A DNA stretch of 64,000 nucleotides from a virus: the IMG/VR virus record IMGVR_UViG_3300042539_000280, positions 62,001 to 126,000 of that record. One strand, 5' to 3'. This document shows, one piece after another, positions 2,997 through 35,521 of this stretch. A program made the translations under genes and the position numbers. Below the pieces are notes generated by a model. The model had not been told where the DNA came from, ran no database searches, and saw only the letters and a program-made list of their open reading frames with translations. The stretch's first letter is position 1, and every line of letters begins with the position of its first letter.

Positions 2997-5045
2997 TTAC
3001 TTTACGTCTGGAAGCCATGAACCATAAAGATTGGTACCGTCACTCACAAATGATATAACGTCTCTGGCACCTGGTGTAGAGGTTAGTTCTGGTGACACAC
3101 CAGCAACCCATTTATAAACGCCGGCCGAAGCAAAGTCTAGTGTTCTACCTCCGACACCATCCTGGATCACATGGAGAATATAGGTACCAACTCTTAGATT
3201 AGAAGGAGCACCCATAACACGATTACCGGAAAGTGTAACAGTAGCAATTGAACCTAATGCGGCATTCCAATTGACAGTAGCAGCATCGGTCAATGTCTGT
3301 GATAGCATATTGGCATTGAATGTTACTGTACCTGTAAACGTTGGACTTGAAATAGATGGTGATGCCTTAGGTGCATACGTTGCCGTTGCATAGGCATTAG
3401 CGGAGTTTGCCATGACACCAGCATAGTTGTTTGCTGATGTAGGAGCGGTACTGACAGCATATCCTGTTAGGGTTGTTGTTAGTGATGTAGAGGTAACATA
3501 TGTTGCTGATGTATAGTTATTGGTAGAAACACCTACAGATGATGCGTAGAGATTAGCAGCAACACCTACTGATGATGCATAACCATTAGCACCTGTGGCA
3601 ACGTTATTTGCCTTTAGGAAGGCAGCGGTAGTATTAGCAGCAATACCGTCTGCATATGTATTTGATGTAATATAAGTTGTTATAGCATTTCTGGTATTAT
3701 CGGTAAATGCCCAACCTTGTGCGGTTTCTATCCAAATGATTGAAGCATTACCTTTATTACCACGATTGATTTCAATACCGGCATTTTCTGTTGCTGTAAC
3801 AGTATTCGGAATATCAGCATTTAGAACGATAATATTATCACCAACCATTAGGTTAGCGGTATTGACATATGTAGTTGAACCAGAAACAGTTAGATTACCA
3901 CCAATTACTAGATCGTTGGTAATTGTTCCACCGGATTTAGCCAAGAATGTTGCTGTAGCATAACCATTGGCCGAGTTGGCCATGACACCGGCATAATTAT
4001 TGGCAGCACCAGTGGATGTATTGGTATATGCTCTTGAAACTATTAGATTAGCATCAACAATGGTCTGTGCAAATGCATTACCAGAGTTAGCCATTGAACC
4101 CGCATAATTATTACCAGAGTTGGCCATTGAACCAGCATAATTATTTGCTGCGGTTGCTGTATTTGCTAGGTTATTGGAAGTTGCATTAGCAAGTGCAAAA
4201 GCGGAATTGAGAACAACATATGCGGCCGATAATCTAACATTATCGGTATTTGACTGAATATATGCAGCATTGGTAACGTCAAAAGCATTATTTTGAGCAT
4301 ACCAGTTATCTTGCAAATAAATTACGGTATTGGCAGTATCACCACCAAGTGTCTGTGCAAGACCGTAGGCATCATTTGCCTTATTTCTTGCGGTGTTTGC
4401 CTGAGTATAAGCCGCATTAGCAACCACATATCCGGCATTTTGTGAAACATATGCTGCCGATAGTCTAACGTTATCGGTATTGGATTGCTCAAATGCTGCA
4501 TTAGTAACGGCAAAATTAGAATTGCCTCTTGTAAATGCCGAATTGGTAACAGTGAAATTGGTATTGACCATATCCCATGCGGCATTGACAACCACATAAG
4601 CGGCGTTCAATGAGACATAAGCACCAGATAGTCGAACGTTGTCGGTATTGGACTGTGTAAATACCGAATTTGTTAGAACGTAGTTAGCATTTCCAGATGT
4701 ATATGATGCATTAGTTACGGTATAATTGGCATTTGTTCTTGTATATGCATCATTAGCAATATCGAATCCAACATTGGCAACAATATATGCAGAATTTAGA
4801 GAATCATAAGCACCGGTTAGTCTTACATTGTCGGTATTGGACTGGGTGAAGGCAGCATTGAGAACAACATATGCGGCCGATAATCTAACATTATCGGTAT
4901 TTGATTGTGTATAAACAGCATTAGTTGTATCAAAGACCAAGTTCATCTTCAATTCTTGTTCATTCATATAAAGAATGACTTGGTTAGTCTTTAATCTCCA
5001 TTGATCAAAGGTATCTGTGAGTGCTACATTTGATGAAATGCCCAT
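2997..5045 (-). CDS. Large repetitive tail-fibre protein (682 aa)
   Basis: The gene encodes an N-terminal attachment segment (residues 1-35), then five copies of a QSNTDNVRLSAAY-type unit interspersed with related YTxxNAxY units (to about residue 285), then NNYAGxMANSxN units, then a shaft block (TTYVNTANLMVGDNIIVLN) shared with the 402-aa fibre. The last about 90 residues form a beta-rich tip ending GTNLYGSWLPDVK, a typical phage fibre C-terminal pattern. It lies directly upstream of the smaller fibre-operon genes. Adhesin or receptor-binding role is inferred from architecture; no hydrolase motif is visible. Confidence 0.75.
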   Translation of the reverse strand: MGISSNVALTDTFDQWRLKTNQVILYMNEQELKMNLVFDTTNAVYTQSNTDNVRLSAAYVVLNAAFTQSNTDNVRLTGAYDSLNSAYIVANVGFDIANDAYTRTNANYTVTNASYTSGNANYVLTNSVFTQSNTDNVRLSGAYVSLNAAYVVVNAAWDMVNTNFTVTNSAFTRGNSNFAVTNAAFEQSNTDNVRLSAAYVSQNAGYVVANAAYTQANTARNKANDAYGLAQTLGGDTANTVIYLQDNWYAQNNAFDVTNAAYIQSNTDNVRLSAAYVVLNSAFALANATSNNLANTATAANNYAGSMANSGNNYAGSMANSGNAFAQTIVDANLIVSRAYTNTSTGAANNYAGVMANSANGYATATFLAKSGGTITNDLVIGGNLTVSGSTTYVNTANLMVGDNIIVLNADIPNTVTATENAGIEINRGNKGNASIIWIETAQGWAFTDNTRNAITTYITSNTYADGIAANTTAAFLKANNVATGANGYASSVGVAANLYASSVGVSTNNYTSATYVTSTSLTTTLTGYAVSTAPTSANNYAGVMANSANAYATATYAPKASPSISSPTFTGTVTFNANMLSQTLTDAATVNWNAALGSIATVTLSGNRVMGAPSNLRVGTYILHVIQDGVGGRTLDFASAGVYKWVAGVSPELTSTPGARDVISFVSDGTNLYGSWLPDVK
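4200..4930 (-). repeat. In-frame tandem repeat encoding QSNTDNVRLSAAY units
   Basis: Five strongly similar DNA segments around 4225, 4455, 4625, 4815 and 4875 encode the same 13-residue motif. Copies differ mainly at synonymous positions (taatctaacatt versus tagtctaacgtt), indicating selection on the protein. Confidence 0.75.
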
Positions 5046-33751: not shown

Positions 33752-34375
33752 TTACCAATTTAAGATTAGTTCACTTGTTGTATTCTTTCTGAGGACACCT
33801 CTAGGAAAGAAGTCAAACACTAAACAATAAAGAGTTTCATTTGATTCATTGATATCTGCGGAATGATTGATATTGGACGGAAAAAATATTAGTTTATTTG
33901 TTTCGGGAATTACATCATATGCTTTGCAATTGAATAAGTTCCAATTATTGATCAATAATTCAATGGTAGGAGGAGGTTGTTCGGGTCTATGTAAGTTCAA
34001 TTTACTACTACCATTCTTATCTACACTTAGATATAACAAACCTGTAAATATAGATTGAGCATGATAATGTGAACCAGCAAAATCACCGGGTTTCATTTTG
34101 ATTGCCCAAGCCGTTTTTAGATCCATAACAAAATTAGGATCCGTCAAATCTAATCCTAGAACCTCTCGTGCATATATGTCTGCTACCTTTTTTATGTCAT
34201 CAAAAAGGTCCATAAAGAAAGGATCATTGTGTATTTTCTTAGAAACTGAATACTCACAACATCCGTCATTAGTAGACTCGAAAGGAAGATTTCTAACATA
34301 CTCTAGCACATTAGACCCTACATTGTCAAGAGTTGTTTCTAAGATAGGTGTTGAAAATATGCCCGTGACTTGCAT
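33752..34375 (-). CDS. Putative 2OG-Fe(II) oxygenase (TIGR02466-like)
   Basis: 207 residues. Landmarks of the phage/cyanophage 2OG oxygenase-like family are the N-terminal IFSTPILETTL, GSHYHAQSIFTGLLYLSVD (His103-x-His105 motif), and NKLIFFPSNINHSADIN with a distal His. A final LYCLVFDF replaces the usual arginine-bearing strand. Iron ligation by HxH plus distal His is atypical but usual for this subfamily. The substrate is unknown. Five oxygenase-like genes lie between 33752 and 52441, and this is the most divergent. Confidence 0.65.
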   Translation of the reverse strand: MQVTGIFSTPILETTLDNVGSNVLEYVRNLPFESTNDGCCEYSVSKKIHNDPFFMDLFDDIKKVADIYAREVLGLDLTDPNFVMDLKTAWAIKMKPGDFAGSHYHAQSIFTGLLYLSVDKNGSSKLNLHRPEQPPPTIELLINNWNLFNCKAYDVIPETNKLIFFPSNINHSADINESNETLYCLVFDFFPRGVLRKNTTSELILNW

Positions 34376-34576: not shown

Positions 34577-34639
34577 AATATAATCCTTTCATGATAAGCG
34601 GGCCCGTTCTGTTTCGAGGTGGAGCCCATACCCAAAGGG

Positions 34640-34684
34640 TTACGCTGCTAGAGCGAAAGCCTCATATGCATTGTTATCGTTTGC
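34640..34684 (-). other. tmRNA tag reading frame (ANDNNAYEAFALAA)
   Basis: The resume codon GCA at 34682-34684 is followed by 13 codons and TAA at 34640-34642. The tag ends in ALAA, the usual recognition end for ClpXP-type proteases and SspB-type adaptors. It begins with the ANDN common in alphaproteobacterial tags. Upstream CGTAAAT matches the place where E. coli has its UAGUC phase signal. Confidence 0.9.
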
Positions 34685-34750
34685 ATTTACGATTTGCTTT
34701 CGATCTCCTTACGACCTTACTGAATCCTGTCGAACCTGAATCGCCCCCAT

Positions 34751-34835
34751 CATAAACAGAGGACTCTCCATGCCTTCTCGGTGATCAATCCGATATCTCA
34801 CTTCATAGAGCCAGCGTCCTGTTCCTCTGTTTATG
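34751..34835 (-). other. Intervening segment of permuted tmRNA with 13-bp inverted repeat
   Basis: Arms at 34751-34763 and 34823-34835 are perfectly complementary (CATAAACAGAGGA/TCCTCTGTTTATG) and enclose about 59 nt. The arms begin at the encoded CCA end and end beside the coding-piece 5' end. Folding would bring both processing sites together, as expected for precursor maturation by RNase P and 3' processing. Confidence 0.8.
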
Positions 34836-34906
34836 GTGGAGGCGGTGGGAACTGCCCCCACGTCCAAGAAGCCTATATTCCGTCTCTCAACGATCTAAGC
34901 ATGGTA

Positions 34907-34935
34907 TTTATAGCACATTTATGTCAGATTGTCAA
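34907..34935 (-). promoter_or_regulatory. tmRNA promoter (sigma70-like; also contains TATAAATA)
   Basis: TTGACA (34930-34935), 17 nt, TATAAA (34907-34912) with extended -10 TGC directly before it. Initiation about 7 nt downstream would fall at position 34900, the first base of the acceptor piece. The -10 is also part of an exact TATAAATA (34905-34912), so early and late polymerase could both use it. It overlaps the 3' end of the upstream oxygenase gene. Confidence 0.8.
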
Positions 34936-35521
34936 TAGCATTATCATTATAATAACTGAACCACCCGGTATAGATATACTTTTCCTGAGTTGGTGAAGTA
35001 ATACCTCTATGGGTAAATGTCCAATCAGCAGGCCAGATTATGGTCAATCCTTTTTCTGGTCTAATTTTTATTTTTTGGTGATAAAATCCTGTTTCGCCTT
35101 GATCCGTAACATCATTAAGATATGTAATAAAAACCAAATGTCTTGAACTCATAGGACGACTATAACAAGCCCTTTCGGAATGCCATCCGTGATAACCTCC
35201 GCCTGGAGGATAATATTGTAAATTTCCAGTTTCTACTGTTTTCCAAGGGTCGGAACAATTACAATAAGGATATTTTTCAATATACAAATCAATACACTTT
35301 TGTAATTCATCATTATAGATTTTAGATATGGTAGGATCTTCCAATTTGCAATCTATACTGTCTTTCATAGACTTATTAACAATTGCATATTCTCCAGAAA
35401 GACCTTGCCATTTATTGGAGGTATTCTTATGATAATCTATCATAAGGTCGCAAACTTGTTTGCTAATATACCATCCACATATAAAGTTATCAAACTGATT
35501 TATAAAGTGTTCTCGTAACAT
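34919..35521 (-). CDS. Putative 2OG-Fe(II) oxygenase (prolyl-hydroxylase-like)
   Basis: 200 residues. The core contains LQYYPPGGGYHGWHSERACYSRP (His114-x-Glu116 in the iron-binding position), LVFITYLNDVTDQGETGFYHQ, and GLTIIWPADWTFTHRGITSP (His171), with Lys181 where 2OG-binding arginine is usual. HxE instead of HxD is a tolerated variant in some members. The substrate is unknown. Its 3' end contains the tmRNA promoter. Confidence 0.7.
   Translation of the reverse strand: MLREHFINQFDNFICGWYISKQVCDLMIDYHKNTSNKWQGLSGEYAIVNKSMKDSIDCKLEDPTISKIYNDELQKCIDLYIEKYPYCNCSDPWKTVETGNLQYYPPGGGYHGWHSERACYSRPMSSRHLVFITYLNDVTDQGETGFYHQKIKIRPEKGLTIIWPADWTFTHRGITSPTQEKYIYTGWFSYYNDNAIDNLT

Follow-up and report, generated by a model that had tools for sequence, protein, structure and literature searches.

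Phage-encoded tmRNAs have been catalogued and hardly tested. A survey of 18,146 phage genomes found them in 402, with 53 two-piece structures, 50 of which came from aquatic phages (PMC9004378). The SsrA of Melnitz (Methylophilales phage EXVC044M, MZ577097; PMC9004378), a T4-like Kyanoviridae phage, is a permuted two-piece RNA of the alpha type, and with such published cases the kind itself is known. The alphaproteobacterial two-piece tmRNA (RF01849; Caulobacter ssrA) has a permuted gene, a T loop of the GGCxGUx type, a G3-U70 acceptor stem, a tag often starting with AND(N), and a conserved ACC..AACAGAA region 3' of the tag. A permuted alpha-type tmRNA is also found in the Sinorhizobium jumbo phage Phosso (PV764938, our L003) at 1401–2090, where no feature is annotated under the match. 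Processing is described for Escherichia coli, where the 5' end of tmRNA is made by RNase P and the 3' end by RNase III or E, followed by trimming (PMC3968760).

We analyzed a window of 64,000 nucleotides, bases 62001–126000 of the 164,392-base virus record IMGVR_UViG_3300042539_000280, and found a circularly permuted two-piece tmRNA gene on its minus strand (34900–34597). The gene has the part order of Melnitz and the alphaproteobacterial features listed above. The helix formed by the spacer ends in Melnitz, UAAACACUU/AAGUGUUUA, is similar to that of the window, and the Melnitz tag also ends in ALAA. Unlike the window gene, Melnitz has the tag ANDNYVPVDYALAA, a spacer of 142 nt, and a normal-length segment of 62 nt before the tag, and its tmRNA is followed by a glutamine riboswitch, which Rfam did not find in the window. 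No phage in the collection matched over a longer nucleotide stretch than Phosso did in its tag–PK2 region (83% identity), but Phosso retains PK1 and has a spacer of about 410 nt and the tag ANDNVSTKVALAA. Alphaproteobacterial copies differ in having PK1 (CGG...CCGUUAUCGG) and 62–66 nt to the resume codon against 44 nt in the window; the four bacterial copies that we aligned had short spacers.

Layout, promoter and genomic context

In an Rfam cmscan of the window, the alpha_tmRNA model (RF01849) matched at 34939–34597 with 98.4 bits (E = 1.2e-25) and the tmRNA_permuted model (RF04321) at 34895–34640 with 94.4 bits (E = 5.3e-17), both at full model length and above the Rfam thresholds of 50 and 47 bits, respectively. 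ARAGORN called a permuted tmRNA with the tag ANDNNAYEAFALAA. The score of about 98 bits is far lower than the 187–304 bits of bacterial alpha tmRNAs; here as below, counts and E-values are relative to the collections searched, and viral contigs may be fragments. A sequence-only reading of the locus had proposed a phage-encoded permuted two-piece tmRNA and had named Rfam models and tmRNA-specific tools as checks. Both kinds of check, together with the covariation described below, agree with that proposal. The individual elements that it listed (encoded CCA, 7-bp acceptor pairing, 13-bp inverted repeat, tag frame, and promoter) are all present; their position on the minus strand went unmentioned in the reading.

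The order of parts is acceptor piece, spacer, and coding piece. The acceptor piece (34900–34834), delimited by cmscan, alignment, and pair counts, contains the distal H2 strand, the T arm GUGGG-GGCAGUU-CCCAC (34861–34845), the 3' strand of the acceptor stem, A73, and the encoded CCA. The T arm follows the cmscan alignment, and one of its pairs changes from U-A to G-C in the relative L007. An 85-nt spacer (34833–34749) separates this piece from the coding piece (34748 to ~34597, the 3' end being approximate), which opens with the 5' strand of the acceptor stem and continues with the D-loop analogue, H2 strands, the tag, and a PK2-like fold; PK1 is absent. The acceptor stem has seven pairs, formed between GGGGGCG (34748–34742) and CGCCUCC (34844–34838), and includes G3-U70; cmscan and pair counts place its 5' strand. 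The tag reading frame GCA...UAA, called by ARAGORN, lies at 34684–34640, opening with an alanine resume codon and closing with nonpolar residues, and the PK2-like region 3' of it, with the stem GGGCUC/GGGCCC, at 34627–34600.

Upstream of the gene we read by eye a promoter at 34935–34907, TTGACA (34935–34930) and TATAAA (34912–34907) separated by 17 nt, which predicts a start near 34900. Our promoter scanner omitted it, as its rule demands a T at the last position of the –10 element; conservation backs the reading by eye, since a promoter of the TTGAC[AT]-N17-TATAAA type is kept in nearly all relatives (it is absent in L028). The downstream promoter element, at the –10 region, reads TATAAATA. 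This sequence agrees with the T4 late-promoter consensus as well and is unenriched in the window (4 occurrences against 4.6 expected). The T4-late-promoter-like NATAAATA precedes 3 of 61 genes at a distance of no more than 80 nt (gene starts 24429, 13714, 60337 (-)), where 0.4 would be expected; we take this as no more than suggestive. Directly downstream of the tmRNA, the ORF list gives a 64-aa reading frame with hydrophobic stretches (34576–34382, minus strand); it adjoins the tmRNA in several sister phages as well and probably shares its transcript. Genes for 2OG-Fe(II) oxygenases of different PHROG families flank the region at 33752–34375 and 34919–35521.

The record is a T4-like virus of bacteria. 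The baseplate protein gp6 of the window is 30–39% identical to those of the T4-like marine phages P-SSM4, HTVC008M, Mosig, and Melnitz, and neighboring genes encode, besides the oxygenases, PhoH, a single-strand binding protein, an exonuclease, a ligase, and a thymidylate synthase. The whole record gave a single alpha_tmRNA match and no second tmRNA. No SmpB gene was found in it, so SmpB of the host would be needed for the roles that the sequence-only reading suggested, ribosome rescue once host mRNA is degraded or a tag specificity of the phage's own. The sequence-only reading took the tmRNA type to indicate the host group. This fails, since Melnitz infects a gammaproteobacterium and yet has an alpha-type tmRNA, and the exact tag pattern of the window is absent from the 84,980 bacterial and archaeal genomes searched. 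We dropped an assignment of the host through the tmRNA and claim no host, as the nearest matches disagree: those of the ANDNNA tag type are mostly in Rhizobiaceae, those of the T arm are in alphaproteobacterial genomes of 1.2–1.3 Mb with the tag ANESYALAA, and within the phage collection the tag–PK2 region is nearest to Phosso. The same reading held phage-borne tmRNAs to be rare; the published survey counts bear this out broadly, yet they are a described feature.

Covariation, the spacer helix and PK1

Searching with the tag pattern returned 25 viral contigs, to which a coding-piece pattern contributed one further contig (L162). These relatives collapse to 13 distinct complete sequences, the window's included, on which the alignment and pair counts are based. 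For the named structure of 34 pairs, 97.3% of the cells in the alignment were paired compared with 87.5% in shuffled data, and 14 pairs had changed on both sides compared with 5.0 in the shuffles. The covariation score was 0.280 against 0.087 in shuffled data, with none of the 500 shuffles reaching as high, and sliding the partners by one to three columns left only 38–54% paired. The acceptor stem exists in three versions, GGGGGCG/CGCCUCC, GGGCCGG/CCGGUCC, and GGGGGUG/CACCUCC, and G3-U70 is kept in 13 of 13 sequences. In H2, positions 7–10 are always paired with 140–143, one of these pairs covarying (A-U, G-U, G-C), and the proximal part is 95% paired. At the place of the PK2-like stem GGGCUC/GGGCCC, three relatives (L016, L021, and L162) have GCCACCA/UGGUGGC instead. 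The tag shows silent changes at six codons (D3, N5, A6, A9, F10, and A14) and a single replacement, F to I in L162. Covariation and near-silent variation of the tag together provide good evidence that the RNA is under selection and that its tag would be translated. We discarded a candidate hairpin in the acceptor piece (alignment columns 22–34), which suits the relative L004 and does not fit the window. The 98-nt spacer of L162 contains two T-arm-like stretches (GGTTCGATTCC), perhaps the remains of tRNA genes.

The ends of the window spacer pair as UAAACAGAGGA/UCCUCUGUUUA (34833–34823 with 34763–34753), and the helix runs into the acceptor stem. The spacer ends pair in all types, for example as UAGAUACACAG/CUGUGUAUCU and UAAGCACU/AGUGCUUA; this end helix covaries, and the interior is unconserved and mostly unrelated between types. 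The spacer closes with an invariant UGAU, which lies opposite A73-CCA with a single C.A mismatch; spacer helix and acceptor stem would thereby make up one near-continuous duplex of about 22 pairs. The 13-bp inverted repeat that the sequence-only reading saw joining the two pieces, CAUAAACAGAGGA/UCCUCUGUUUAUG, belongs here and extends past the single C.A mismatch into the acceptor stem. Minimum-energy folding of the window RNA also contains the duplex (z = –2.6). The covarying helix predicted for the precursor, which closes the spacer and pairs part of the CCA tail, is new here and offers a concrete cleavage model for permuted precursors. The duplex may be the processing substrate, possibly of RNase III, and the ends may then be completed by RNase P and exonucleases.

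The phage RNA is compact upstream of the tag. The stretch between the TCGAC motif and the resume codon measures 44 nt in all 22 copies of the window group, whereas the distance elsewhere is 62–66 nt in bacteria (one spurious match of 27 nt aside), 62 in Melnitz, 66 in Phosso, and 62–88 in other phages; in the window phage the end of H2 is 17 nt from the resume codon. A PK1 pattern was found in none of the 22 window-type copies compared with 122 of 125 bacterial segments, a set that is biased in that most were fetched by the ANDNNA tag pattern and come from Rhizobiaceae, the rest being a class-wide sample. PK1 is usual in the alpha type and lies outside the tmRNA_permuted model, and because that model omits it we treated it as non-defining. 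The E. coli tmRNA still tags when a hairpin or a single strand stands in for PK1 (PMC4236655, PMC3968760); according to one review, tagging needs PK1 unless a hairpin substitutes for it. Given the tolerance in E. coli, tmRNA function without PK1 is plausible. The lack of PK1 in the window group is new here, and a compact tmRNA of this kind is a natural test of how much of the tmRNA trans-translation needs.

HNH-like reading frames in the spacers of relatives

Two sister types of the window gene, L007/L010/L014/L017/L019 and L012/L015/L027 (L027 lies on a 174-kb contig), have spacers of 482 or 492 nt that are filled by an ORF of 144–156 aa beginning MKHKHHIIPKHMGG. The ORF lies at ~8330–7850 on the minus strand in L010 and at ~5057–5488 in L027, and matches to the tmRNA_permuted model span the filled spacers (62.2 bits in L010 and 62.5 bits in L027). 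Its stop codon falls within the invariant UGAU that precedes the coding piece, and pairing between the first and last bases of the spacer is retained. Against the Pfam HNH model the ORF scored 20.6 bits (E = 5e-4), just under the cut-off of 21.4, and it contains the motif HHIIPKHMGG. The insertion site is conserved, being occupied in the L010 and L027 types and empty in the window and ten other types; inspection of the window spacer by eye showed no endonuclease remnant.

A protein search with the spacer ORF found 187 relatives in viral contigs, of which 80 were retained and some 60 loci scanned with Rfam for tmRNA. Four further tmRNA types hold an HNH-like ORF inside the spacer, giving six sequence types in all. 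They are L168 (acceptor stem CCGGUAC/GUGCCGG, tag ANDSNYNYALAA), L172–L174 (tag ANESVYQLAA), L186 (CUGCUCC/GGGGCAG, tag ANTNAKPETLALAA), and L192 (tag ANTNASPFGSALAA); for L172 and L186 the tmRNA was identified by eye, Rfam making no call at its threshold. In L186 and L192 (~3400–3500), the ORF runs past the start of the coding piece and overlaps, with its C-terminal codons, the 5' end region of the tRNA-like domain. Recurrence of the architecture in several independent metagenomes argues against an assembly artefact. HNH-like ORFs were also found within about 100 bases of the tmRNA, e.g., in L176–L180, L187, and L193, and at a few hundred bases in L215. In L196, a relative of the HNH-like protein (3001–3243) lies amid an array of about twenty tRNA genes.

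Comparison of the L007 type with the window showed uneven divergence along the gene: 21 of 21 nt are identical in the promoter-proximal part and 111 of 125 in the 3' part, but only 26 of 43 and 16 of 35 in the two halves of the tRNA-like domain. The spacer and both halves seem to have been exchanged as one cassette, and homing with co-conversion would produce such an exchange. We tentatively propose, as a possibility a little short of even, that the spacer of phage permuted tmRNAs serves for homing. HNH endonucleases of one family would insert precisely where the CCA tail ends and the coding piece has yet to begin, with their ends fitted into the processing helix, and maturation of the tmRNA would free the endonuclease message. 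Since homing would carry both flanking tRNA-like halves, acceptor stems or the whole domain would change together while promoter, tag, and 3' fold stay, and the window gene would represent an empty allele as well as a natural PK1-less tmRNA.

Function of the window tmRNA and comparison with known endonuclease insertions

We consider it probable that the phage encodes, in the window element, a working tmRNA of the permuted two-piece kind known from alphaproteobacteria, serving as a rescue RNA with host SmpB. Its expression, processing, charging, and tagging, and the benefit to the phage, we infer as follows. One transcript would begin near 34900, and the spacer ends would form a helix of ~11–13 bp stacked on the acceptor stem. 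Cleavage at the helix and trimming would give a CCA-ended acceptor piece and a coding piece, joined by the acceptor stem and H2, and alanine would be charged through G3-U70. With SmpB, EF-Tu, AlaRS, and proteases of the host, the phage RNA would then act as an ordinary two-piece tmRNA and add rescue capacity during infection: it would enter ribosomes stalled on broken messages, of which many are expected in a T4-like infection, and the addition of ANDNNAYEAFALAA would mark the product for proteolysis and free the ribosome for phage translation. Where PK1 has been lost, the end of H2 followed by a short single-stranded segment would stand instead, a simplification that should be tolerated, to judge from the E. 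coli experiments.

Ordinary rescue is the most likely of the readings that we weighed, and four others rank below it. The phage version could alter the fate of tagged proteins, through proteolysis or nutrient recycling, rather than rescue capacity. Within the group the tag stays constant, the bacterial collection lacks it, and a recycling role has been proposed for Melnitz (PMC9004378); we nevertheless find a change of target unlikely, as the tag still ends in ALAA like bacterial tags and the contrast with a host tag is only putative. Conservation of the tag argues against a decoy function, in which the RNA would bind SmpB and stalled ribosomes and mainly compete with the host tmRNA, dampening host quality control. 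Such a role is reported for the tag-less tmRNA of phage DS6A, inhibition of the endogenous tmRNA in E. coli by a phage tmRNA without a coding sequence being cited in PMC11915505, and the loss of PK1 would fit. A decoy needs no tag, however, and the 13 sequences keep tag, resume codon, and stop with changes that are almost only synonymous, which makes this explanation quite improbable.

The locus could also be kept mainly as a nesting site for a homing endonuclease, the tmRNA giving the phage little. HNH-like ORFs fill the spacers of sister phages and those of four further types of phage tmRNA, and endonuclease relatives lie directly beside phage tmRNAs in many more contigs. The window copy is without such an ORF, yet its fold and tag are under purifying selection, and we regard this as slightly less probable still. 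Finally, the absence of PK1 and the lower Rfam score could be signs of a recently captured host gene that is now decaying. Compensatory changes in the acceptor stem, a covarying spacer helix, and silent changes of the tag over 13 types are the opposite of decay, and we disfavor this reading as very improbable.

The nearest parallel to the spacer ORFs known to us comes from a 2025 survey of tmRNAs, which describes LAGLIDADG endonuclease genes in group I introns of tmRNA genes, as well as permuted spacers with a tRNA and a repeat (PMC11915505). A literature search judged by titles and abstracts turned up nothing relevant on HNH proteins or homing in tmRNA, and within the published text available we found no report of an HNH-like ORF in the spacer of a phage permuted tmRNA, which to that extent is new. 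In both systems a putatively mobile endonuclease lies inside a tmRNA gene. The LAGLIDADG genes sit in introns of the T loop, whereas the HNH-like ORFs of the phage relatives occupy the permuted spacer, where Rfam matched no intron. The spacer ORFs may thus represent a second way for mobile endonucleases to occupy tmRNA genes, beside the T-loop introns, and would offer a mechanism for swapping tRNA-like domains among phage tmRNAs.
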